DNA of 64,000 nucleotides. Source: Liolophura sinensis. Its lineage: Eukaryota; Mollusca; Polyplacophora; Chitonida; Chitonidae. The DNA lies in NCBI RefSeq assembly GCF_032854445.1, contig NC_088295.1, positions 16,045,385 to 16,109,384 on the forward strand, read 5' to 3'. Numbering within the stretch: position 1 is the stretch's first letter; every line of letters begins with the position of its first letter. The position numbers and the translations under genes are program-made. Below are positions 25,701 to 50,690 of the stretch, piece by piece. Under the pieces are notes generated by a model. The model was not told the origin of the DNA. It saw nothing but the letters and a program-made list of their open reading frames with translations, and searched no databases.

Positions 25701-27329
25701 TGACAGAACACAGATGAGGGACGCGACAGTGCTTACACTACAGACAGGACTTCACCAGGATCTGATGAGTACCTGGGGTAAGAACAATGCCCTGCTTCTC
25801 TCTTGCTGCCAAGTTTGTGACATTGGCTTCAAGGTTGTCAAACATTGGCAGATGTTAGAATTGTTTCTGTGTGTAAATACTATATGCTTCAAATTCAGTG
25901 AAAGAGTGTGCATACTGACATGTGTTTATAATTTAATATTAGCTGGAAAGTATTAGGCAGCAGTTTTATTAAAAAATTTGATTTTACGTACTGTAAATCT
26001 TCAGTCTTTTCAACCACTAAAGCATTTTTTTCAGTGGAATTTATGCAAACAGTAATTATGAAAATGACGCTAAAAATAATTTGTTTGTCTTATTAAAGAT
26101 GAAAGCTTCGTAAAACATAAATTATTTCTTTACACTAAATAGTTCTCTCAGAACATTTCAATATATCAGTCTCAGAGGTAGTTGAAAGGGTTGAAGAATT
26201 AGGGTATATCAGTATGTATGTGTAATGTATTTGGGGTCTCTGTGGCCGAGGGGGTTAGCATGCCAGCATTTCTCAGTGAGTTCAAGCCCACCTCATGCTG
26301 GCTCCCTCTCCGGCCAAACATGGGAAGGTGTGTCAGCAACCTGTGGATGGTCGTGGGTTTCATCCTGGCTCTGCCTGATTTCCTTCCACCATAATTTTAG
26401 CCCCCGTCGTAGAAGTGAAATGTTCTTGAGTACAGTATGAAACACCAATTAAATAAACAAGTAAATGTAATGTATTCAAAGTACAGATGATTCTGCATTG
26501 TGATATATGTTGTATTGTGTTTACCAGTAGAAAGGATGGGCATGGCAGTGCCGAATCAGGATCTACGAAATCCTCTGACTCTGATACAGAGCGCTCCCCA
26601 AGGCCACCTGCTGGTGGACGACCTGCAACACGGCGCAGTAGGCCGGTATCTGCACGCACTTTACATCAAAACCAGATCATGGACATAGCCCATCCTCTCA
26701 GTGGAGAAGTGGGCATAGAGCTGGGTGTTCAGACCCGTGGCACAGTGGCAATACAGACTGACAGCAGAGGAGACATGGTGAGCAGATCAAACCATTGTTG
26801 TGTAGCCCTTCAGTTTTAATAGATCGCCTAACATTGACAAAGGGACAAAAATCTTTCCATAAAGTAAAATTTTATCCACGAAAGATTAAAAATTCCTACT
26901 TGAGCTTGCAAAGGTAGAGAAAAGTGTTGCTGCTTTTTCTTCATTCTCAACATATTTTGCATTTTACATTGTGGCACATGTCAAATGATACAGAAAAGTA
27001 ATATTTAAATACACTTTTGTGTATATGGGGAGGTGTATAACAAGAGGGTAAAACATGAAAATGCAGCTGAGATACTTTGTTTTATACTGGTTCCCAGCAC
27101 TGAATAACATGGATACTAAGACCAGGGGGGACAACTCTTTCCCCTGACACCTGTATGTACATCATCATATTCCTAGCTTATGGGCATGGTTGAATTCAGA
27201 ACTTTAAAGATCATGGTGGCTGATTTAACACCTCTTCATACACTGGCACTTCAATTCCTGAGAACCTGTGCTTGTTAGGTTATAAACTGTTAACATGCTT
27301 TATTTCAGACTGAGAAAGATTTGGATGAG
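13722..27329 (+). CDS. Exons 1-15 of the PLAT/ankyrin gene (N-terminal region)
   Basis: Exons: 13722-13762, 17773-17863, 18605-18700, 19714-19791, 20328-20360, 20855-20881, 21601-21663, 22800-22906, 23895-24003, 24416-24493, 25008-25052, 25487-25516, 25707-25777, 26528-26777, 27309-27329. They encode residues 1-380, which match no domain I know. Seen: a YYFEVKRLEDGFDL segment right after exon 1, many Pro, Ser, Arg and Lys residues, and an Arg-rich low-complexity part in exon 14. Exons 5 (33 nt), 6 (27 nt), 12 (30 nt) and 15 (21 nt) are microexons divisible by three, so each could be skipped without a frameshift. Exon 7 could start at 21601 or after the AG at 21605-21606. Confidence 0.78.
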
Positions 27330-30300
27330 GTAAACCTTGAACTTGCAGTGTTGTTTACATCTTGGTGCTGGAGTGTGATCAAGTTGTTGGCTAACAAATC
27401 ATCTATATTTGCACTTAAAGGCTATGTGGGTTAATACAAATATTGAAGAATTAATAGCTGACAATTAATTAATTTTTCGTGGTTTGTACATTTTCGTCTT
27501 TTTTATTTGTGGATGTGTTTGCAAAGTTTGATAAATAATGTACTGAAGTAAAAGTTGATATTTTTTAAAAAATAATATACATGTACCTCAGAATTGTTAG
27601 AGCTTAAACATATGGGTCATAGTCTGATAATCTAATAAACAAATCTTTGTGAATACTATCTGAGACAGTGTTAGAATACAAACATATTTGTTTTTATTGG
27701 TGTAAGTTGTATGATCCAGTATAGGGTTGCCTTTGTGAATGCAGTTCTTCTCATATTCTCAAGTTTGAGATGAAAGGCTTTGAAGTACAGTGTATTATCT
27801 TAGGCATTGTTCATGTAGTTTTACATTCTACGTATTAATAGGGCATGTTTGTTTTCCTCCAAAAAGATGCAGTAATTATGTCTGTGCATTGCTCAAGACA
27901 GTGTTTGTTCATCATCATCCTATATATTTGCTTTGTATGATGTTACATCATTGTTGCTTTGCCAGGGAGATCACATTGTGAGGGCTGGTCCCCCGGCACA
28001 GTACCACATCTATGTGAGAACTGGCAAGAGGATAGGTGCCAGCACCAAGGCCCATGTGAAGATCACGCTGTATGGAGAGCATGGCCGCTCACAGGAGTTC
28101 CTACTGGCAGAATCTCAGAGGCACAAGATCAAGTTCCAGAAGGGACATGTATGTGCATAGATTGTTAAATTTTTCAAATCTTGTAGTACCAAATTTCTTC
28201 TTTGAATCACTGCTGTACACTATTAATTTACAACCTGCTGTATTGTTTTCAGGAGGATTTATTTACAGTTTACACCCCTCATGTTGGCAGACTGAAGTGT
28301 GTGAAGATAGGACATGACAGACCTGAGTTAAGTATGTCCATTGTCTTATTGCTTTTTTAATACTGTTATGATTAGCTCAAGCTCTTTGTGTTAAATTGGG
28401 TGTATGTTATCTTAAGTGAGTTCAAAAACTATAATCACGGTGTTGTGACATGCCATACTGTAATAGCTACTGCTGATTTGTATGTTGAATGCAAGAATCC
28501 TGAATATCAGCTTTGTATTGGCCAGTGTACGCATGGTTCCTGGAAGGTGTGACGGTTGAGGACACTGTGGACAAGCGAGTGTACGAGTGTCCGTGTGAGC
28601 GATGGTTGTCGGGTCAGGACGGGGACAAGAAGACATATAGAGTACTACCTGTGGACAGAGACCGTGCCCTTATTAAAGGTAACAGGATTCACCAAAACTA
28701 GCGAGTGCTCATGTAGGCCCTGTGTGTATATACATTTCCTGACCAGCGTTGAAAATGTACACTAGCTGGGAAGTCATTTCATATTTCTCAGGCTATGTTC
28801 TGTTGTATAAATGGCTGTTGTGGTAATTATGACACATTCCAGACTGTTTAGGTAGAGAATATATATCTTGTATGTAATTAAACCTTCTGTTCAAAAATAT
28901 GATCGTGGATGTGTGTGTCCTAAAGTTGGTATTAAAGAATTAAATTTTTCCTTTCAATTTCAGATTCTGATGATGATTCTGGTAGTGATGTGTCTTACAT
29001 AAAAAAGTATGGAGAGGACACGGAGTCTGAAAGAGATGATAGCCCTCGTCGTTCTCCTGACAGTGTGAAGGCTCGGCGAAGTGCTGGGTCGTCAAAATCT
29101 AGCTCCTCAGATAGTGAAACAGATAGTGATACAGAGACGGACACCTCAAGCAGTGAGAGCACACAGAGGGAAATCATCATCCCTGTTAAACCTCCTTCAA
29201 CAGATGTCAAGGTAACGCAAACAACCCAGTCAAAGCCTACCCGAGGGGAGCACCATTACGAAGAATCAAAGATACTAGTGTCACCTGGTAGAAAAATGAA
29301 AGATGACTTCTTTGATCAGAGACCTGCTGGACCAGTGTACACTTTTAGGACAGGTACATCGGTGGACAGTCGTGAGGATGCAAACACAGAGAAACCTGAA
29401 CTGTCCATCACAGAAACTGATTCTGAGACGTCCAAGACAACCACCTCTGACTACAGCGAAACCAACAAAGCGGCTGTTATTATGCCTATATCACGATTCC
29501 CTGTAATAGCTGAGGAGGATCCAAAACAACGTGCCACTCCTGACACCTCTGAGGAGAGGAATGTGAGCCCAGGTATGGCTGCTGCTCCTCAGAGAGTTGT
29601 GCCTCGTATAGCAGTGGACCGTGTAGAAGAGCCTATTATAGAACAGACTGGAGGATTTTCCGGGGCTCGTGTATTGAAGGAGGAGTCTGGGACAGAATCA
29701 GGAACAGCCAGGACTACATCAGACTCTGTGACAAGTGAGAAAAAGGGTGCTGTTGATGAACGGCTTAACCAGCCGCTCACAGTGAAGAAATCCACAAGCA
29801 GTGAAGCGACTGAGGGAACTACAACTGAAACCGGCTCCAACACTGACAGAACAGCACATAGTGGCTCGGCCACTGACAGAACCACACAGAGTGGCTCAGC
29901 CACTGACAGAACCACACAGAGTGGCTCTGGGATTGAACGATCCTCAACGACTAGTGGCTCCAGCACAGACAGGACAGCAACAGAGGTAGAGCAGTCAACA
30001 AACACAAAGAAAGTGGACGAAAGTAGTGGAAAGACTTGGCCAGTACAGGCGGTAAATGGTTATGGAGCCCCATCAGCATCAGCAACATCCAACACAGAGA
30101 AACCTGAACAGGCAGCAGACTCAGGCACTGAAGACTCTGACTCAGACTCCAGTAGCAGTAACGGTTCTGAGTCAGAGTCTGATTCAGACTCTGAAAGTGA
30201 TGGTGAAACACCAAGACCTGAACAAGTACAGCCAAAGAAGGAAGATGACAAGGTGAGTTCTTCTCTCTGCTGTATGGTAGATGTATATTTAGATTGGTAG

Positions 30301-33300
30301 TTGTGGTATATGATGTCTCTAAATGACAATGTCTGCACCAGGATGTTGAATAAATACTCAGTGTGTACAGTATCATGCAGATTGCCATCATGTATCACAT
30401 GTGAATCAATTAAATTTACACAAGATTAATTTACCACATAAACTTAATGTGAAGATGAAATGCCAAAAAAACAAACATCTCAGGAAATTTTCCACAAATC
30501 AATATGATTCTACTCATTGTTACAAAATGGCTTGCATTCCTGATTAACACCTTCACAATAGAGTTGACATGTGCCCTTGATTGTTTGAATTTACTAAGTC
30601 ATGTCAATTTATTATGAAGAGACTACAGCTGATAATGAGATGTTAATTTTACAGATTGGTTACAGTCAGAAGGAGAGTATGCCATCTCCTCAAGTGTCCC
30701 AGACTGTCACCACAGTGTCAGGGGAAACCCTGCACGAAGCAGCCAAGGCAGGCAAACTGACAATTGTGACGGAAATCATCCAGAGCCACCCAGACAAGAT
30801 AAAGTAGGTCTATATTCGAACGTATACGCTGACTGCATTTACATGTAGATATTTTAGTAGAATTTTAATATTGTCTTCCATCATGACCTTATGTACTTAA
30901 AATAGGTACATGTTCATTCAGATAGGTGTAAATTACTTACGCAAGAAGTGAAAATTACAAGCAACTCTTGAGCCGATGATCCATATGCATTCTATATAAT
31001 CATAATTAATGTTCTGTAAAACTAAAGAAACTTAGTTTCAGAATGTATAAGATTTTAGATTTCAGCTTTTTTTTTATTAAGAATGTGTTTTGGAATACTG
31101 ATGTCTGTAATTCACACATACATTTTAACTTCTTGCAACAGGGTTTAACTTTATTTGTGTGTGTACTGTGTTACAGCGAGTTAAATGAGGTGGGTTGGAC
31201 AGCTCTCCATGTGGCTGCGTCAGAGGGTCAACTTGAAGTTGCTCAGTGGCTGGGGCAGAATGGAGCGGAATTGAACAAAGAGACGCCCACAGGTTACAGT
31301 GCTATTCACTTGGCGGCTCTTCATGGGCATGCTACCACCCTCAAGGTAACATCATAGAACCGTATTGGGTAATAACATAATAAGTGATGTGCCCTGCATT
31401 TAGTATTCATCATATAAAATCTGTTAGTGTTACAATAATTATCCATTGAGTTGCTTTTTTAATTGATGTAACACCATACTCAGGAATGATTCACCTACAG
31501 GAAGCCAAGAATGCCGTTGGTTTTGTTGGTGAAAGAAACCACTGCACTTCTTCGCATGAGACAAACTTCCTTAAAGAAGTTTCTTCTAATTGAATGTAAG
31601 ATGTACATGTATTAAATAGATTTAATTAAAAAATATACATGTATTTGTACAATGTGTCAGTAATTTGCCATAAGTTGGTGGTTTACATTTGGCACTCCAC
31701 TCATGAGACCAAATCATGAGAACGGCATTAAACAGCAATTAAACAAAGAAATTATCAGATACATGTACTGAGTACTGTGATTTATGGATGCCAGCACATT
31801 GTATATTACCCAGTATTCGACATCTTCTTCTGAATGTACTGTAATGTACTGTTTTCGCATGTTTGCAAGATGCTTATTCAAGCATATTCTGAAGGCATTG
31901 TTCTGTGGTCACTGATAAAGTTATGCTTTTTCTGAAACCCTGAAACTGGCCAACCCAGTTAATGTAGTTTTGTATCCAAAATTAAAATAAAAAGGTGCAC
32001 AAATTACACTGAAAGTTGATATTTCCTATATTAACGGATTGAGGAATTAGGGTACATGAATGTTCATGTGTACATTATGTCTGATCTGTGGTTGTATGTG
32101 CTCTTTGTAGCTGTTGGCATCCCTGGGAGGGACTGTGAACTGCCTGACCACAGACCAGCAAACACCATTACATTTGGCTGCCCTCAGGTAAGCTTAACTC
32201 TACTGCAGGATGGTCAGCCTGGCGCTAGTATGCATAGATGAACCTTCAACCAGTCATCATCAAACCTCTCTATGAAAATACCCGTAGCAGAAATTGGTGG
32301 GTCCAATGGCGGGGACTCAACAATAGTAGAATTACTGCGTCCCTATGGATTTTTTTGCGTCAGAGAGGCCTGACCTGTACTATTAACACGACTGGTATAT
32401 GCTGTCTTTGTTCTAAGTAAAGTAGATTCACACCCTTAAAAGTGAAGTTAGCCGTCTTTCAGTGTTGGATGTGCAGGAAACACTATGTGAATTTGCTGTC
32501 ACAGCAATCATACAACAGTATATACATTGTAAATGCTACACACACCAATATTTTTCAGACATCTTCTCCATGTACTTCATGATATACATGTATAGCCTCA
32601 ATTTTGGTTTGTTGAAATGGTACACGCTTTTAATATTGGTACATTCAACTCAAAGCACCAATACCTGACATTCTTTTTTACATATATAGAGAGAGAATTT
32701 TGTCTTTAGTTGATTTTGAATGGTGCAAACACCACTCGTATAAGTATCAAGGAGATAAATGCACTGCGTTGTTTTGTCAGTGGCCATGTGGAGATTGCTA
32801 AGTGGCTGATAACTAATGGTGTGGACATAGGAGCTAGAGATGAATCTGACCGCACAGCCTTGGATTTGGCAGTTAGAAACGAACAGGATGAAGTCACAGA
32901 GTATCTTAGGTCATTTGCAGGGAAGGACGCATCTGACAGCGGGTAAGCCGTTCTAGTATACATATTTGATAAAAGGTGTATAAGATAAGTCATTCTGACG
33001 TAGAGGGTAAGCCACTCTAATGTGAAGGCTACCTACACTGGCCTATAGCGGGTAAGCTAGTGTGGTATAGCGGGTAAGCCAGTGTGGTATAGCGGGTAAG
33101 CCAGTGTGGTGTGGCGAGTAAGCCAGTGTGGTATGGCGGGTAAGCCAGTGTGGTATAGCGGGTAAGCCAGTGTGGTATGGCGGGTAAGCCAGTGTGGTAT
33201 AGCGGGTAAGCGACTGTGGTATAACGGGTACCCCACTGTGGTGTGGCGAGTAACCCAGTGTGGTATAGTGGGTAAGCCAGTGTGGTATAGCGGGTAAGCC

Positions 33301-36300
33301 AGTGTGGTATAGTGGGTAAGCCAGTGTGGTATAGCGGGTAAGCCAGTGAGGTATAGCAGGTACCCCACTGTGGTGTGGCGAGTAAGCGACTGTGGTATAG
33401 AGGGTAAGCGACTGTGGTATAGCGGGTAAGCCAGTGTGGTATAGTGGGTAAGCCAGTGTGGTGTGGCGGGTAAGCCAGTGTGGTATAGCAGGTAAGCCAC
33501 TGTGGTGTAGTGAGTAAGCCAGTGTGGTATAGCGGGTAAGCCAGTGTGGTGTGGCGAGTAAGCCAGTGTGGTATAGTGGGTAATCCAGTGAGGTATAGCG
33601 GGTACCCCACTGTGGTGTGGCGGGTAAGCGACTGTGGTGTAGTGAGTAAGCCAGTGTCGTATAACGGGTACCCCACTGTGGTGTGGCGAGTAACCCAGTG
33701 TGGTATAGTGGGTAAGCCAGTGTGGTATAGCGGGTAAGCCACTGTGGTATAGCGGGTAAGCCAGTGAGGTATAGCAGGTACCCCACTGTGGTGTGGCGAG
33801 TAAGCGACTGTGGTATAGAGGGTAAGCGACTGTGGTATAGCGGGTAAGCCAGTGTGGTATAGTGGGTAAGCCAGTGTGGTGTGGCGGGTAAGCCAGTGTG
33901 GTATAGCAGGTAAGCCACTGTGGTGTAGTGAGTAAGCCAGTGTGGTATAGCGGGTAAGCCAGTGTGGTGTGGCGAGTAAGCCAGTGTGGTATAGTGGGTA
34001 ATCCAGTGAGGTATAGCGGGTACCCCACTGTGGTGTGGCGGGTAAGCGACTGTGGTATAGAGGGTAAGCGACTGTGGTATAGCGGGTAAGCCAGTGTGGT
34101 ATAGTGGGTAAGCCAGTGTGGTGTGGCGGGTAAGCCAGTGTGGTATGGCGGGTAAGCCACTGTGGTGTAGCGGGTAAGCCAGTGTGGTGTGGCGAGTAAG
34201 CCAGTGTGGTGTGGCGGGTAAGCCAGTGTGGTCTAGTGGGTAAGCCAGTGTGGTATAGCGGGTAAGCCAGTGTGGTGTGGTGGGTAAGCCAGTGTGGTCT
34301 AGCAGGTAAGCCACTGTGGTATAGCGGGTAAGCCAATGTGGTATAGCAGGTAAGCCACTGTGGTGTAGCGAGTAAGCCACCATGGTTATGTGGGTATGTG
34401 GGTATTTTACTCTTTCATGGAGAGTAAGCCATAATTAAGATAGTGTTCAGTGGGATCTTTGTGGTGTATGGGGTAAGTCAAGTTGACATTGTATTTGTCA
34501 GTTGTTTAGTATGTTTCCTATTTTTTCAGAAAACCTGTTGAATTTTCAGTAGAGAATGGCACCCACAATAACTCTGTTACAGACCATGTTGAGGTGAGTG
34601 TAAATACATTTACTTTACTTCAGACTCTATTATGTCATTTCAAAGACAGAAATGACAGCCATGTATTCTATCATGGTGTTGCCAAAGTACATACAGTTGA
34701 GGTACAAGGCCGTGGGGTGCACCAAGCACATACACTTAGATGCAAACAAGGTTCAAATTCAAACAAGGCTCGGGTGACCTGAGCAAAACCTCTCACCTAA
34801 TATGTTATAATTGATAACTTGCGGTTTGCTCTCGCTTTCCTCAATATGCTGCCATTTTCTGACTTTTCTAAATGGTGAACTTCCCTGAGTTATGTTGATC
34901 ACATATCACAAATTTTTATTTGCAGATTAATTGTTTTTTCACATGTTCAGTACTCAAGAGTGTGTAATTTGAGATGGAAAAAGATGACAAACATTTTTTG
35001 TTCATTTTTAGAGGCAAATCTACTTAGTCTTGTTCAACTTTCGTGAAGTATCAGTTTATAGTTAGTAAATGATATCATAACTTTGTTCATTGTACAGTAT
35101 GTTTACTGTCTTTCTACATTTGTTGTAAATTTCTGTGTTAAATGGTACATGTTAGAAGATTACTTCAAATTTTTACCAGAGAAGTCATTACTATAATGAA
35201 TATTTGGTTCAACATCTGTTTACAGAAGTTCAGTGCACAGACAAGCCAGCCTAGCTCCCCTCACACACAGGAAGAAGACTTGAAGGTATGATCTGGCTGA
35301 CTTATTGACTTTATAGTGGGTCAGTGGGTGCAGTAATATGAGCACAACAACTAATATGTCAGCGTGATGTGAGCAGAACTGCAGTACCATTCTCATGTGG
35401 CCTGCTGTCATGTCCTTGTGATGTGAGCAGAACTGCAGGACCATTCTCACGTGTCCTTCTGTCATGTCAGCGGGATGTGAGCAGAACTGCAGTATCATTC
35501 TCACCTGTCCTTCTGTTATGCCCGCGTGATGTGAGCAGAACTGCATTACCATTCTCACTTGTAGTTCTGTCATGTCAGTGTGATGTGAACAAAACTGTGG
35601 CACACCTCTATTCTCCCCATTCTCACATCCTTAAGTGATGCAAGCAAAACCATCTGCAGTACTTCTCACCAGTCTCCTGTCCTTCAGTGATGCAACCAAG
35701 CTACAATACTTGTCACCACTCATCACATGTCGTCAGGGATGCGACCAAAATTGCAGTACTCTCATCATTCTCACATGTTCTATTAAAATTCCTAAAAAAT
35801 CATTATCATGAACCTCTCTTTGACTGGCTCAAATCAGTGCACAATTGAGGGTGAAGGCCTGCAGACAAAATCTTACATGGTATTGGATTCTAATTGTGAA
35901 ATATTGGTAGCATATCAGATGGTATGAATAATAGTTTTTGTTGTATAAACTTGTTAATTCCATATCATTATATTAAATTATGTAAAATATTAATGCGCTG
36001 TAATATGGTTAGATTTTACACTTTCACAGCTTCCGGGGTGACAAAAGCAGTAGATGATCCATGAGGCTATTTGTGCAGCCTGATGTTCACTGAAGACCGC
36101 TAGTCTATGAGCAATATACATGGAATATGGTTAATTTTACAACTTTCACAGCTTCCGGGGTGACAAAAGCAGTAGATGATCCATGAGGCTATTTGTGCAG
36201 CCTGATGTTCACTGAAGATCGCTAGTCCTATGAGCAATATACATGGAATATGGTAGATTTTACCACTTTCACAGCTTCCGGGGTGACAAAAGCAGTAGAT

Positions 36301-37267
36301 GATCCATGAGGCTATTTGTGCAGCCTGATGTTCACTGAAGATCGCTAGTCTATGAGCAATATACATGGAATATGGTTAGATTTTACCACTTTCACAGCTT
36401 CCGGGGTGACAAAAGCAGTAGATGATCCATGAGGCTATTTGTGCAGCCTGATGTTCACTGAAGACCGCTAGTCTATGAGCAATATATATGGAATATGGTT
36501 AGATTTTACCACTTTCACAGCTTCCGGGGTGACAAAAGCAGTAGATGATCCATGAGGCTATTTGTGCAGCCTGATGTTCACTGAAGACCGCTAGTCTATG
36601 AGCAATATACATGGAATATGGTTAGATTTTACCACTTTCACAGCTTCCGGGGTGACAAAAGCAGTAGATGATCCATGAGGCTATTTGTGCAGCCTGATGT
36701 TCACTGAAGATCGCTAGTCTATGAGCAATATACATGGAATATGGTTAGATTTTACCACTTTCACAGCTTCCGGGGTGACAAAAGCAGTAGATGATCCATG
36801 AGGCTATTTGTGCAGCCTGATGTTCACTGAAGACCGCTAGTCTATGAGCAATATACATGGAATATGTATATCTGTACATCACATGAGGAAAAGTCTGGTT
36901 TTCGTCAAGCACTCCTGTTCCCTCCACCCATGAAACTTGCATTATGGTGAACTATTGGATTTTCTCGGCCAGACACACCATGTGACTCGTAAATTCCTGT
37001 TGACGGCAATGCTCCACTATTACAAATCTCACGTGATAATGCATTAAAAGCAGACAGTGCACCTATCCTGAAACTTGCTGCGACCATATAAATGAAAAAT
37101 TCTTCAGTATGGCCTTATAAATCAACAATTTAATAAATGAATAAATAATGCAATCTGCTTATATGTTTTAGGAAAAGCGACATTTATATGAGGAGCAAAA
37201 GAGTAAAATGGACGAGTCAGGACTGAGTTTCTTGGACAGCATTCGCCAAGAACTTGAGCAAGACTAG
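13722..37267 (+). CDS. PLAT/LH2-domain and ankyrin-repeat protein (26 coding exons)
   Basis: I reconstructed 26 exons, each with AG before and GT after; their lengths sum to 3,621 nt and keep one frame, giving 1,206 residues. The ATG at 13722 has an in-frame TAA at 13707-13709 and A at -3. Layout: basic, Pro/Ser-rich N-terminus (1-380), PLAT/LH2 beta-sandwich (about 392-507), Ser/Thr/Asp/Glu-rich linker (about 510-948), five ankyrin repeats (about 972-1125), charged tail. There is no signal peptide or membrane segment, so it is probably an intracellular scaffold. PLAT domains commonly bind lipid or protein partners and ankyrin repeats bind proteins; a role here is inference. I do not recognise a named orthologue. 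The least certain parts are microexons 5, 6 and 15 and the exon 7 acceptor. Confidence 0.88.
14048..14498. mobile_element. Inverted-repeat (foldback) element in intron 1
   Basis: The left arm has 'ttggagtctc', 'gtgttaatttcatactcaac', 'gacaccaacct' and 'ctcgatttagaa...tttattatagcc'. The right arm holds the reverse complements in mirrored order, ending at 'agactccaa' (14490-14498). The arms are about 170-200 bp, around a centre near 14270. There is no gene inside; the short open frames in the arms are strand shadows. It resembles a foldback or long-TIR nonautonomous transposon. The outer limits are approximate. Confidence 0.75.
14664..16520. mobile_element. Large inverted repeat with 1.2-kb interior in intron 1
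   Basis: Left arm 14664-14930 and right arm about 16205-16520 are diverged reverse complements. Shared landmarks are 'gatgctaaatta', 'cttatcctcttgtttta' and 'tctcctcg'. Read outward from the interior, each arm could encode a similar short peptide containing LKQEDK, so a gene-like fragment exists in two opposed copies. The interior (about 14960-16200) has TIR-like ends around 'ggctagcc' and 'tggctaatgcc', and three imperfect direct repeats around 'tttatttctacctcctg' (15470, 15745, 15860). I do not recognise the element. Confidence 0.6.
26232..26465 (+). mobile_element. tRNA-derived SINE (family 1) in intron 13
   Basis: Starts 'ggggtctctgtggccgaggg' and carries 'cagtgagttcaagccc' and a core with 'tggatggtcgtgggtttc', ending in an AAATAAA-like tail. 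The 11-bp TGTAATGTATT flanks both sides (26221-26231 and 26466-26476) as a target-site duplication. Its sequence is more diverged than the copies at 50.9 and 56.5 kb. Confidence 0.9.
27966..28678 (+). CDS. Exons 16-18: PLAT/LH2 domain
   Basis: Exons 27966-28148, 28253-28331 and 28526-28678 encode residues 381-518. The domain opens with YHIYVRTGKRIGASTKAHV and ITLYGEHGRS, the usual first strands of a PLAT/LH2 fold (aromatic-x-hydrophobic start, then a Gly/Ser/Thr turn, then V-x-I-x-L-x-G). It continues with LAESQRHKIKFQKG, LFTVYTPHVGRLKCVKIGHD and YAWFLEGVTVED, and ends near ERWLSGQDGD and TYRVLPV. The region around 442-475 contains the basic and aromatic positions expected for partner or membrane contact. 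The length of about 115 residues is normal for the family. Confidence 0.92.
28964..30252 (+). CDS. Exon 19: long Ser/Thr/Asp/Glu-rich disordered linker
   Basis: This 1,289-nt exon encodes residues 519-948 and is much larger than its neighbours. It opens with an acidic DSDDDSGSD stretch and has several runs of Ser, Asp and Glu. At about residues 805-861 there is a short repeat based on GSATDRTTQ (DNA about 29820-29990). It closes with a Ser/Asp/Glu-rich segment at about 904-931. There is no folded domain; it is probably a disordered, phosphorylation-prone linker between the PLAT and ankyrin modules. Open frames on the opposite strand are by-products of the biased codons. Confidence 0.9.
30655..32942 (+). 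CDS. Exons 20-23: five ankyrin repeats
   Basis: Exons 30655-30803, 31177-31345, 32111-32187 and 32781-32942 encode residues 949-1133. Five ankyrin repeats are visible from their cores: LHEAAKAGKL, TALHVAASEGQLEVAQWL, SAIHLAALHGH, TPLHLAALSGHVEIAKWL and TALDLAVRNEQDEV. The first and last are the less typical caps. Exon 23 ends at GCGG followed by GTAAGC at 32943, and the repeat array just downstream copies this donor. Confidence 0.93.
33047..34383. repeat. 22-bp tandem array carrying a splice-donor motif, intron 23
   Basis: About 60 units of 22 bp, each with the core 'agcgggtaagcc' and 'gtgtggt'. The unit core matches the exon 23 donor context (agcgg/gtaagcc at 32938-32949). Diverged copies already appear at about 32980-33030. 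Unit variants recur in the same order 418 bp apart (19 x 22 bp; landmark 'ccagtgaggtatagcagg' at 33343 and 33761), which shows a higher-order duplication. 22 is not a multiple of three, and every frame on the minus strand stays open for over 360 codons purely as a result. Confidence 0.97.
34530..37267 (+). CDS. Exons 24-26: C-terminal tail and stop
   Basis: Exons 34530-34593, 35226-35285 and 37172-37267 encode residues 1134-1206. Exon 26 encodes a charged, helix-prone end (EKRHLYEEQKSKMDE then SFLDSIRQELEQD) and stops at TAG 37265-37267. A short coiled coil is possible. Intron 25 contains the 55-bp and 123-bp tandem repeats. Confidence 0.88.
35364..35600. repeat. ~55-bp tandem repeat in intron 25
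   Basis: 'gatgtgagcagaactgcag' recurs at about 35365, 35420, 35474 and 35529, with a diverged fifth copy near 35583. The spacing is 54-55 bp. Traces of 'gatgcaaccaa' continue to about 35760. Confidence 0.9.
36003..36865. repeat. Seven copies of a 123-bp tandem repeat in intron 25
   Basis: The landmark 'ttccggggtgacaaaagc' occurs at 36031, 36153, 36276, 36399, 36522, 36645 and 36768, so the period is 122-123 bp. Copies are almost identical, which implies recent expansion or ongoing homogenisation. No coding function is apparent. Confidence 0.97.
36890..37150 (+). mobile_element. Decayed SINE-like sequence
   Basis: 'cctccacc', 'cattatgg', 'attcttcagtatggc' and a terminal 'aataaatgaataaat' resemble the 3' half of a SINE but are strongly diverged. 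It lies just before the acceptor of exon 26. Confidence 0.3.
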
Positions 37268-42621: not shown

Positions 42622-43740
42622 ATGAGCAATTCCGGTCGGAAAGCCCAAAGCTTGGAGACGCTTGTATCACGCTTCTCGGCCAAGAAAAAGCGCGAGCAAG
42701 ACATCACGTTCTGGAGTGGCGAGTCGGAGGGTTTCCTGAGTACGGACCGGACCTATTCTCTCACACCCAGGCAAGTGTCCAATGAGCTGGGGGAGAGCCA
42801 GGTGCCTCGTGTTCCCGCTAGAGAGAAAGACGTGCTCTCTGCACACGGCTACTTCTTTCAAAGCATTATTAGCGAGTCAAAGTGTAGTAAATTGTACAAT
42901 GTTACTGACAGAAGAAACGGTAAACTAAAAGCGGTAAGGGTTTACACCATCGAGAATGCAGCTTTAGCCTCTCCACATTTTGTGAACTTCATCAAGAACG
43001 AGATTACTACTTTATCCCAAATTCAACATGAAAACATCATCAGGTTGTACTACAACTTTCAGTACTACTCCAGACATTACGTTATCATGGACTACATGGA
43101 AAACGGTTCTCTGGAAAACTACATGAAAGCACACAGGCTCTTTCCCTCGCCAAAAGAGCGCAAATCTATCTTCCAGCAGATGTTGTCAGCCTGTAAGTAT
43201 TGTCACGATATCAATATCGTTCACCATGACCTCAAGCTGACAAATATACTATTGGATAAGAACAATGACATTAAGTTATATGGTTTTGGGTGGTGTGTGC
43301 CGTGGGCTAGCGAACAAGGGGAGGTTGAGCTGTGTACCGACTATTGCGGAAACCTGGACTATGCCGCCCCGGAAGTGCTAACCCACACGCCATACGACCC
43401 CCGACCCGTAGATATTTGGGCGCTAGGAGTGATTTTGTATACACTTCTTTGTTTTGAGTTACCGTTTGGATCCGTCAGCTCAAGCACCCGCCGACTTTTC
43501 AAGTACCAGAAATCTCGGAAACTACGCAAAAGGATCGTTAAGAAGGCCCCACCGGAAGAGCAGTCGTGTATTCACCTTATCTTGGACATGCTAGAGCCCG
43601 ATGTGACGCAAAGAATCTCACTTAATTCTATATTTTCCTGCAAGTGGCTTTCCGAAGAACGCAAAAGTAAGGCTGAGAACGCTAAATCCACACCCTTTGA
43701 ATCCTCGCCATCTTCCCTGAGTGGCATATTTACAGAGTAA
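42622..43740 (+). CDS. Probable pseudokinase, CAMK/SNF1-like fold
   Basis: A single open coding exon of 372 codons; the in-frame TAG at 42613-42615 fixes ATG 42622 as the first start. The kinase domain covers about 78-343. The Ser/Thr kinase layout is clear: alpha-C Glu (E127 in KNEITTL), HHDLKLTN at 201-208 in place of HRDxKxxN, AAPEVL (249-252 region), DIWALGVILYTLL (264-276) and an Arg near 331. Key catalytic positions are missing. The Gly-rich loop has no GxGxxG, the VAIK lysine is R106 (AVRV) and DFG reads GFG at 221-223, so metal-binding Asp is lost. Only the HRD Asp (D203) remains. Phosphotransfer is therefore unlikely; it is more likely a scaffold or allosteric regulator. A 5' UTR intron (42057-42544) is possible from gctcag/gtaa and ttcag. 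Confidence 0.9.
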   Translation: MSNSGRKAQSLETLVSRFSAKKKREQDITFWSGESEGFLSTDRTYSLTPRQVSNELGESQVPRVPAREKDVLSAHGYFFQSIISESKCSKLYNVTDRRNGKLKAVRVYTIENAALASPHFVNFIKNEITTLSQIQHENIIRLYYNFQYYSRHYVIMDYMENGSLENYMKAHRLFPSPKERKSIFQQMLSACKYCHDINIVHHDLKLTNILLDKNNDIKLYGFGWCVPWASEQGEVELCTDYCGNLDYAAPEVLTHTPYDPRPVDIWALGVILYTLLCFELPFGSVSSSTRRLFKYQKSRKLRKRIVKKAPPEEQSCIHLILDMLEPDVTQRISLNSIFSCKWLSEERKSKAENAKSTPFESSPSSLSGIFTE

Positions 43741-48885: not shown

Positions 48886-49359
48886 TCTTTGAGTAAATTG
48901 TGTCCGGGATCCACCAAATCTGTTTTCGCGTCTTTTTCACTTGGTAAAGACCCTAACATATATAAAGGTACAGAAATAAAAATGATATTAATTTGAAGTA
49001 TAAAAGCAGACTGTGAAATGAAGAACTGTTATACTAGTCATTTTTAGTGCGCGCATGCGTCATATTACAGGCTGGGAATTTCGTCTGCACTTAACAAAAA
49101 GGTGATTTGATTTTGTTCTTATATTCTATATGTGAAGTCGTTATTGACCGGTGTCATCAATCCCTGAATAGGTGCAACATCTGCAAAACGCCCAAACTCA
49201 TTTTTTGAACACATTGCAATATTTACATTGACTATGGGTTCAATCCCGTCCTTGTACTGGAAATTGCTTATTATTCGTTTAGCCTTACAGACAAAATGTG
49301 ATTATGGGCGTTCGCGCATGGGTAGGTCTATCTTACATTCGTTGGAAGTTTTGCTTTAT

Positions 49360-50120
49360 GTTCAGGGGAGGTTTGTCTTACTTTCGTGGGAAGGGAAATG
49401 TATCTAACCCTGGGGAATAGGTTTGTCTTCCATTCACGGGAAACTTTGTCTTACGTTCAAGAGGAGGTTTATCTTAAAATCACGGGGAGATTTGTCTTAG
49501 GTTCGTGGGGAGGTTTGTCTTACGTTGATGGGGAGGTTTGTTCCACCTTCGTGGGAAGGGAAGTTTATCTAACCTTTGTGGAGAGGTTTGTCTTACGTTC
49601 ACGGGGAGGTTTGTCTTACATTCACGGGGAGGTTTGTCTTACATTCACGGGGAGGGTTGTCTTACATTCACGGGGAGGGTTGTCTTGCGTTCATTACGAG
49701 GGTTGTCTTATGTTCGTGGGAAGGGTTGTCTTACTTTCATGGGGAGGGAAGGTTGTCTAACCTTTATGGAGAAGTTTGTCGTGCGTTTACGTAAAAGTTT
49801 GTCTTACGTTCTGGGGAGGTTTGTCTTAACTTCTTCACTCGTGGGGTGGTTTGTCTTATGTTCACGGGTAGGTTTGTCTTACGTTCGTGGAAAAGGAAGA
49901 TTCTTTAACCTTTGTGGAGAGGTTTATCTTAGGTTGACGGGGAGGTTTATCTTACGTTCATGTAGATATTTCTTTTACGTTCGTGGGGAGGTTTGTCTTA
50001 TCTTCGTGGAGAGGCTTGTTTTACGATCATGGGGAGGTTTGTCTTATGTTCGTGGAGAGGTTTGTTTTACGTTCATGGGGAGGTTGTGTTATCTTCGTGG
50101 AGGGGTTTATCTAACGTTTG
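49360..50120. repeat. 23-bp minisatellite
   Basis: Over 30 diverged units based on 'ggggaggtttgtcttac' plus 'gttcac' or 'gttcgt'. For example 'cgggga' falls at 49625 and 49648. Long open plus-strand frames here come from the repeat and read as a repeated LSYVHGEV-type peptide with no other coding sign. Confidence 0.92.
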
Positions 50121-50123
50121 AAT

Positions 50124-50690
50124 TGTATTTGTCTGGTTCGGTGATTATCATGACACATTACGAACGGCTGATTGGTATTTGTCTGTTTCGGTGATTATCA
50201 TGACACATCGCGAACGGCTGATTGGTATTTGTCTGTTTCGGTGATTATCATGACACATCGCGAACGGCTGAATGGTATTTGTCTGTTTCGGCGATTATCA
50301 TGACACATTACGAACGGCTGAATGGTATTTGTCTGTTTCGGCGATTATCATGACACATTACGAACGGCTGATTGGTATTTGTCTGTTTCGGTGATTGTCA
50401 TGACACATCGCGAACGGCTGATTGGTAATTGTCTGTTTCTGTGATTATCATGACACATCGCGAACGGCTGATTGGTAATTGTCTGTTTCTGTGATCATCA
50501 TGACACATCGCGAACGACTGATTGGTATTTGTCTGTTTCTGTGATTATCATGACACATCGCGAACGGCTGAATGGTATTTGTCTGTTTCTGTGATTATCA
50601 TGACACATCGCGAACGACTGATTGGTATTTGTCTGTTTCTATGATTATCATGGCACATTGCAAAACCTTGTGTGGTATTTATGTATTTAT
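50124..50690. repeat. 50-bp tandem repeat, about 11 units
   Basis: 'cgaacggctg' or 'cgaacgactg' recurs at 50161, 50211, 50261, 50311, 50361, 50411, 50461, 50511, 50561 and 50611, exactly 50 bp apart. The units include 'tttgtctgtttc' and 'gattatcatgacacat'. It abuts the 23-bp array directly. Confidence 0.97.

Follow-up and report, generated by a model that had tools for sequence, protein, structure and literature searches.

A 64-kb stretch of the genome of the chiton Liolophura sinensis (contig NC_088295.1, positions 16,045,385 to 16,109,384; hereafter the window, whose own coordinates are used below) contains a gene for an ankyrin-repeat protein, one intron of which holds a tandem array whose 22-bp unit resembles the splice donor of the exon directly upstream. 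The gene is represented by a 13-exon model (26528-37267) that has no internal stop and terminates in a stop codon, comprising 916 modelled residues with an undefined start. Pfam assigns a PLAT domain to the exons near 28.0-28.6 kb, a second piece of which falls under the curated cut-off, and, in a search over the spliced exons 30655-37267, ankyrin repeats to approximately 31.2-32.9 kb. The exon adjoining the array is 162 nt long and ends in phase 2 at GG/GTAAGCC, with agcgg closing the exon at 32942 and the authentic donor GT at 32943-32944. An exon beginning with the open frame at 32710 was rejected in favour of the acceptor ending at 32780, because the exon upstream ends in phase 2 and the latter acceptor keeps the frame open and restores the ankyrin repeat. 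At an E value of 1e-5 no paralogue of the 32781-32942 exon was found except itself, and the exon with its flank is single copy in the assembly (609 Mb, 632 contigs).

The intron that follows measures 1,587 nt, 85 % of which is array (Table 1). A first-pass annotation, made from the letters of the window alone, had proposed about 60 units of 22 bp carrying the donor core, and 61 were counted, all head-to-tail, exactly 22 bp long and free of indels; the corresponding Tandem Repeats Finder (TRF) call covers 33044-34379 with 60.7 copies, 84 % matches and 0 % indels. The units comprise 27 distinct types. Eight positions are invariant: three form the GTA within the donor core, one is the C at +6, and the remaining four fall outside that core. 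The 418-bp higher-order period that the same annotation had ascribed to block duplication was also recovered; it equals 19 units and is marked by an exact run of 314 nt at offset 418, with additional exact runs of 105 nt at offsets 242 and 660. Opposite the array, on the minus strand at 33029-34434, three long open frames (391-463 codons) overlap one another; they provide no evidence for a gene because the stop-free 22-bp unit reads through in all three frames. Predicted RNA structure is weak, with z scores of -2.2 at 32930-33300 and -1.2 at 33600-33900.

Table 1. Features of the array-bearing intron and comparable loci elsewhere in the genome (window coordinates unless a contig is named)
Feature	Position	Strand	Description or basis
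Ankyrin-repeat coding exon, ending ...DASDSG	32781..32942	+	3' end and donor match array unit; 13-exon open model; Pfam
Authentic donor region, gacagcgg/gtaagccgttctag	32935..32956	+	5'-most unit-like copy, 16/22 to consensus; U1 duplex of 9-mer; AGCGGGTAAGCC copy
In-frame TAA reached by every extended exon	32944..32946	+	62/62 decoy donors
Diverged transitional units and junction stretch	32977..33043	+	flank scan, wraparound alignment
Homogeneous array	33044..34385	+	61 units x 22 bp, consensus TATAGCGGGTAAGCCAGTGTGG, 19-unit block duplication
Diverged 3' units, GT at 34394, 34424, 34473	34386..34486	+	11/22, 13/22, 14/22 to consensus
Next exon downstream	34530..34593	+	acceptor ttcctattttttcag ends 34529
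L046, DUF4457 exon			Pfam 3.3e-15; 19 exon bases in unit; ~20 copies
L055, GH31 exon	G000:C1:26350300-26355000		Pfam 2.7e-13; 28 exon bases; 39-bp unit, 19 copies
L059, EGF exon	G000:C1:31595500-31602700		Pfam 1.1e-8; 27 exon bases; 32-bp unit, 143 copies
L064, open frame			no Pfam/PDB match; 28 of 29 bases; 7 copies
L062, open frame			no Pfam/PDB match; 9 bases; at least 22 copies, array runs to stretch end

Relationship between the donor and the array

Growth of the array from the neighbouring donor, as supposed in the first-pass annotation, is well supported as a local origin by an exact shared core, diverged intermediates, a unit essentially confined to the locus and parallel loci in the genome. 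Outside the array, the 12-mer AGCGGGTAAGCC has a single exact copy on the two strands of the window, at 32938, which is the donor, while within the array it occurs in 15 exact copies, rising to 36 at up to one mismatch and 53 at up to two. The diverged units that had been noticed between donor and array are likewise present: the GT-equivalent positions 32985 (which reads AT, not GT) and 33007 match the consensus at 13/22 and 15/22, respectively, and alignment of the 114-bp 5' flank (32930-33043) to the cyclic unit yields a score of 40, compared with maxima of 29 among 2,182 other tile-strand pairs of the same length and 23 among 300 shuffles. Even when alignment of this flank starts at 32949, which leaves out both the exon side and the six initial intron bases, it scores 32, more than any tile. 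The 3' flank (34386-34500) has a wraparound score of 26, equalled by one of the 2,182 tile-strand pairs and one of the 300 shuffles. In a comparison of the 119 GTAAG sites that lie elsewhere than in the array, each scored for its likeness to the cyclic unit with the nine splice-consensus bases ignored, the donor stood third, below 33007 and 34473, both of which belong to the same intron.

A genome-wide search with the 19-mer core of the unit (at most two mismatches; counts are lower bounds) yielded at least 49 matches, 42 of which lie in the array and seven on three other contigs. Each of the off-locus matches carries two mismatches, and about seven would be expected by chance from simple arithmetic. 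Within the array itself the pattern picks up 42 of 61 units, and more diverged relatives would escape it. Dispersal as an ordinary satellite, named in the first-pass annotation as an argument against local origin, was thus not seen, and at up to two mismatches the unit appears essentially confined to this locus. A public viral collection gave no matches to the unit, and the one 19-mer match in a planctomycete contig (about two being expected by chance, again by arithmetic) contains GGGTAAGCC singly, so that no array is present there.

Other arrays in the same genome

Further arrays were sought as three GGTAAGT motifs at short spacing, with the reversed motif as a control and with matches, not arrays, being counted. 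The sample drawn from the matches listed comprised 20 stretches with 21 arrays on contig C1, two of them at L054, and one array per stretch was examined. The unit contains an open-frame exon end together with its donor in five of the 20 (Table 1), three of which are backed by Pfam. Derivation from a donor was judged by the open frame of the exon and a Pfam match reaching the donor; the length of the exon match alone was dropped as evidence, because a donor that forms part of an array will always agree with the repeat around it. In one set of eight peptides submitted to Pfam, four matched, namely the L046, L055 and L059 exons and a transposase frame that the L061 array follows. At L046, L055 and L059 the Pfam match reaches within one residue of the exon end, and the direction, as read from the sequences, is from exon to array, because the shared segment codes for part of a conserved domain. 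The copy number at L059 is the highest of the 20 examined arrays. The L062 peptide is reminiscent of deoxyribose-phosphate aldolase. At four loci (L049, L050, L054 and L058, the last matching GMC oxidoreductase) an exon-like frame lies upstream and the exon end is not in the unit, and the other ten arrays have no clear exon at the edge when judged by eye. A stop precedes the next GGTRAG donor in four of the five positive loci; at L055 the frame remains open for 92 codons into the array, and decoy donors there would add in-frame repeats of 13 residues.

Tentatively, duplication across exon ends and their donors may constitute a recurring, genome-wide route of intron growth in L. sinensis, a generalization that is possible but less likely than not. 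If it were true, extrapolation from three to five arrays in 20 would imply dozens of arrays with exact GGTAAGT alone, and at some loci with an open frame, such as the L055 GH31 gene, the use of a decoy, if only occasional, would insert peptide repeats in frame, which could give rise to new coding repeats and introns. With comparable arrays at several genes, intron growth by exon-end duplication would become countable within one species, and this recurrence is the part most worth following.

Pairing with U1 and predicted effects on splicing

The expectation that most units offer a U1-type 5' splice site was confirmed by calculated pairing. The GT is kept in 61/61 units, the U1 duplex reaches -8.5 kcal/mol or better in 41/61, and the 9-mer CGGGTAAGC, which spans positions -3 to +6 of the true donor, is present in 26/61. 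The true donor forms a duplex of -10.3 kcal/mol that is equalled or beaten by 30 of the 61 units, and sites pairing at least as well as the donor number 22 per kb in the array versus 0.11 per kb per strand outside it. Among the 11 array regions scored in the window, U1-like units throughout are found only here (41 sites at -8.5 kcal/mol or better versus 0-2 per strand), and U1 scores give no support to the other window arrays as donor-derived. The units vary at -3, -2, -1, +4 and +5, with the +5G lost in ten of the 61, and for this reason they show no sign of selection for donor function.

Decoy use was modelled for 62 sites, comprising 33007 and the 61 units, which lie at +64 and then at +109+22k from the donor. 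The first-pass suggestion that the adjoining exon (its exon 23) might be extended by multiples of 22 bp therefore fails on the offsets, and useful extension is rejected because all 62 decoys would read the in-frame TAA immediately at the normal exon end; in every case the first stop would fall after residue 844 of 916 and the last 72 residues would be lost. Recursive splicing from acceptors in the array is also rejected, since a scan of the intron found at least 60 % pyrimidines before a YAG only at 34509 and 34529, both outside the array.

Interpretation and alternative explanations

In the openly licensed PMC literature, to the extent that its text is available, such arrays were found described only for lancelets and for the human IFI6 gene. 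The arrays of amphioxus, termed mirages, are described in the accessible portions of the reports for the globin genes BflGb6 and BflGb9 and for Adh3, troponin C and PGBD5, with units of 10-72 bp in Adh3 and 150-160 bp in the globins and three to six copies in BflGb6 (PMC3087553, PMC3902484). Mirages are presented there as minisatellite-like tandem duplications of an exon-intron boundary, many units of which hold splice signals and in which the centre is homogenised and the edges are not (PMC3087553). The chiton array resembles them in each of these respects: the unit crosses the boundary with an identical agcgg/gtaagcc, splice signals are carried by many but not all units if the U1 threshold is applied, and 19-unit blocks indicate concerted change inside the array while the edge units are diverged. 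It differs in consisting of 61 short units with only some 5-7 exon bases shared, and whereas splicing and instability were tested in amphioxus, the chiton array is described from its sequence.

The array is probably an intronic minisatellite of the same kind as the mirages, derived from the donor and tolerated, with splicing at the authentic site. It would have begun with one or a few short tandem duplications spanning the junction of exon and intron, by which spare copies came to lie in the intron; these would be tolerated because the first copy still provides an intact exon end and donor. The inner units would then have multiplied by unequal exchange or slippage, while the ends decayed. Normal splicing presumably proceeds from 32943, the 5'-most donor, with removal of the whole array, and such tolerance is suggested because amphioxus mirages are reported, in the available sections, not to disturb splicing (PMC3087553, PMC3902484). 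Occasional use of a decoy would give a truncated reading frame, the transcript of which would probably be degraded. The most likely reading is a neutral array, one that at most aids recognition of the intron slightly by way of U1 and G-run binding. Here an intron would have grown through copies of its own splice site, and with dozens of near-identical donors lying downstream of the first it would offer a natural test of donor choice by the spliceosome; the chiton array adds many short units to what is known from lancelet mirages and human IFI6.

Several observations weigh against this interpretation. The use of the 5'-most donor is assumed from amphioxus. Once the comparison is widened to 240 GTRAG sites, the donor falls to fifth place, and the unrelated 38415 and 48873 outrank it. 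A few remote look-alikes of the unit exist, the reversed 19-mer giving no genome match versus seven off-locus for the unit core; because of this, and because four of the five look-alikes on contig C7 are mutually identical, there may be a small unrelated family on that contig. The genome search gave fewer matches for GGTAAGT (1,057) than for the reversed control (1,524), so that donors as hot spots of array birth are unsupported, and the exon-derived pattern was not seen in 15 of the 20 examined arrays and has no domain support in two of the five positives. Finally, since the exon bases common to unit and donor number so few, the direction of derivation is not proven at the locus, where an older intronic array that had reached the donor would look alike.

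Among the alternatives, an uncut platform, on which U1 and G-run binding would strengthen use of the authentic donor and intron definition, is unlikely. Its basis is the density of GGG runs in the array (3.02 per 100 nt, whereas the model's 11 other introns have 0-0.94) and a precedent in PAH, in which, according to the available text, a natural donor can be boosted when U1 binds downstream of it (PMC5933811). Nevertheless, G-richness follows automatically from the unit, and help is not obviously needed because the donor already pairs well with U1. It is rather improbable that a pre-existing intronic minisatellite spread or was converted over the donor, which would then derive from the array. 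The short exon share and the divergence of both edges leave polarity ambiguous at the locus alone, but the exon side codes for protein within the open model, and the segments shared at L046, L055 and L059 lie inside conserved domains.

Quite improbable, too, is a decoy or rheostat role, in which the array would capture U1 and divert some splicing to an early stop, its length tuning the amount of full-length protein. The strong and dense U1 pairing and the stop met by all 62 decoys would suit such a role, as would the minisatellite of human IFI6 (6-16, G1P3), the units of which serve as splice donors according to Turri 1995 as cited in the accessible part of PMC4526556 (the paper, by Turri, Cuin and Porter, is also cited in PMC2572611 and PMC3618361). 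In IFI6, as in the chiton, repeat units beside an exon act as or resemble donors; however, two downstream units are reportedly used as donors there, whereas every chiton decoy would truncate the protein. The decoy function raised in the first-pass annotation is disfavoured by the lack of donor-specific conservation (half of the invariant positions lie outside the donor core), by the mirages said to splice normally and by the standing cost, which would be selected against. An ordinary dispersed satellite or a chance resemblance to the donor is highly improbable, for although the genome is rich in minisatellites and seven remote look-alikes exist, most matches fall in the array and the donor similarity runs beyond the splice consensus.

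A further system bears comparison with the chiton array. New introns that arise when segments containing AGGT are duplicated in tandem, as outlined in the sections available (PMC4974935; model in PMC3087553), likewise involve a tandem duplication spanning a splice site, but the chiton array enlarges an existing intron and no new intron is seen. An intronic 27-bp minisatellite with variable repeat number is reported in an abalone TSSK1-like gene, donors being unmentioned in the available part of the article (PMC6905558).

The window contains about ten minisatellites, and a SINE-like tail of molluscan appearance lies near 51 kb. Two adjoining, unlike ones with units of 23 bp and 50 bp occupy 49320-50658, the first containing GTAAGACAAA on the reverse complement, where U1 scores are weak. 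On the minus strand at 2900-2970, a spacing of about 37 bp separates two GTAAGCC sites, caggtaagccgtg and ccagtaagccgctctaa; the latter resembles the diverged 33007 unit, and the pair may represent a young donor duplication or chance. On the 3' side of the gene, an uninterrupted and apparently intronless protein kinase domain is encoded at 42877-43653.

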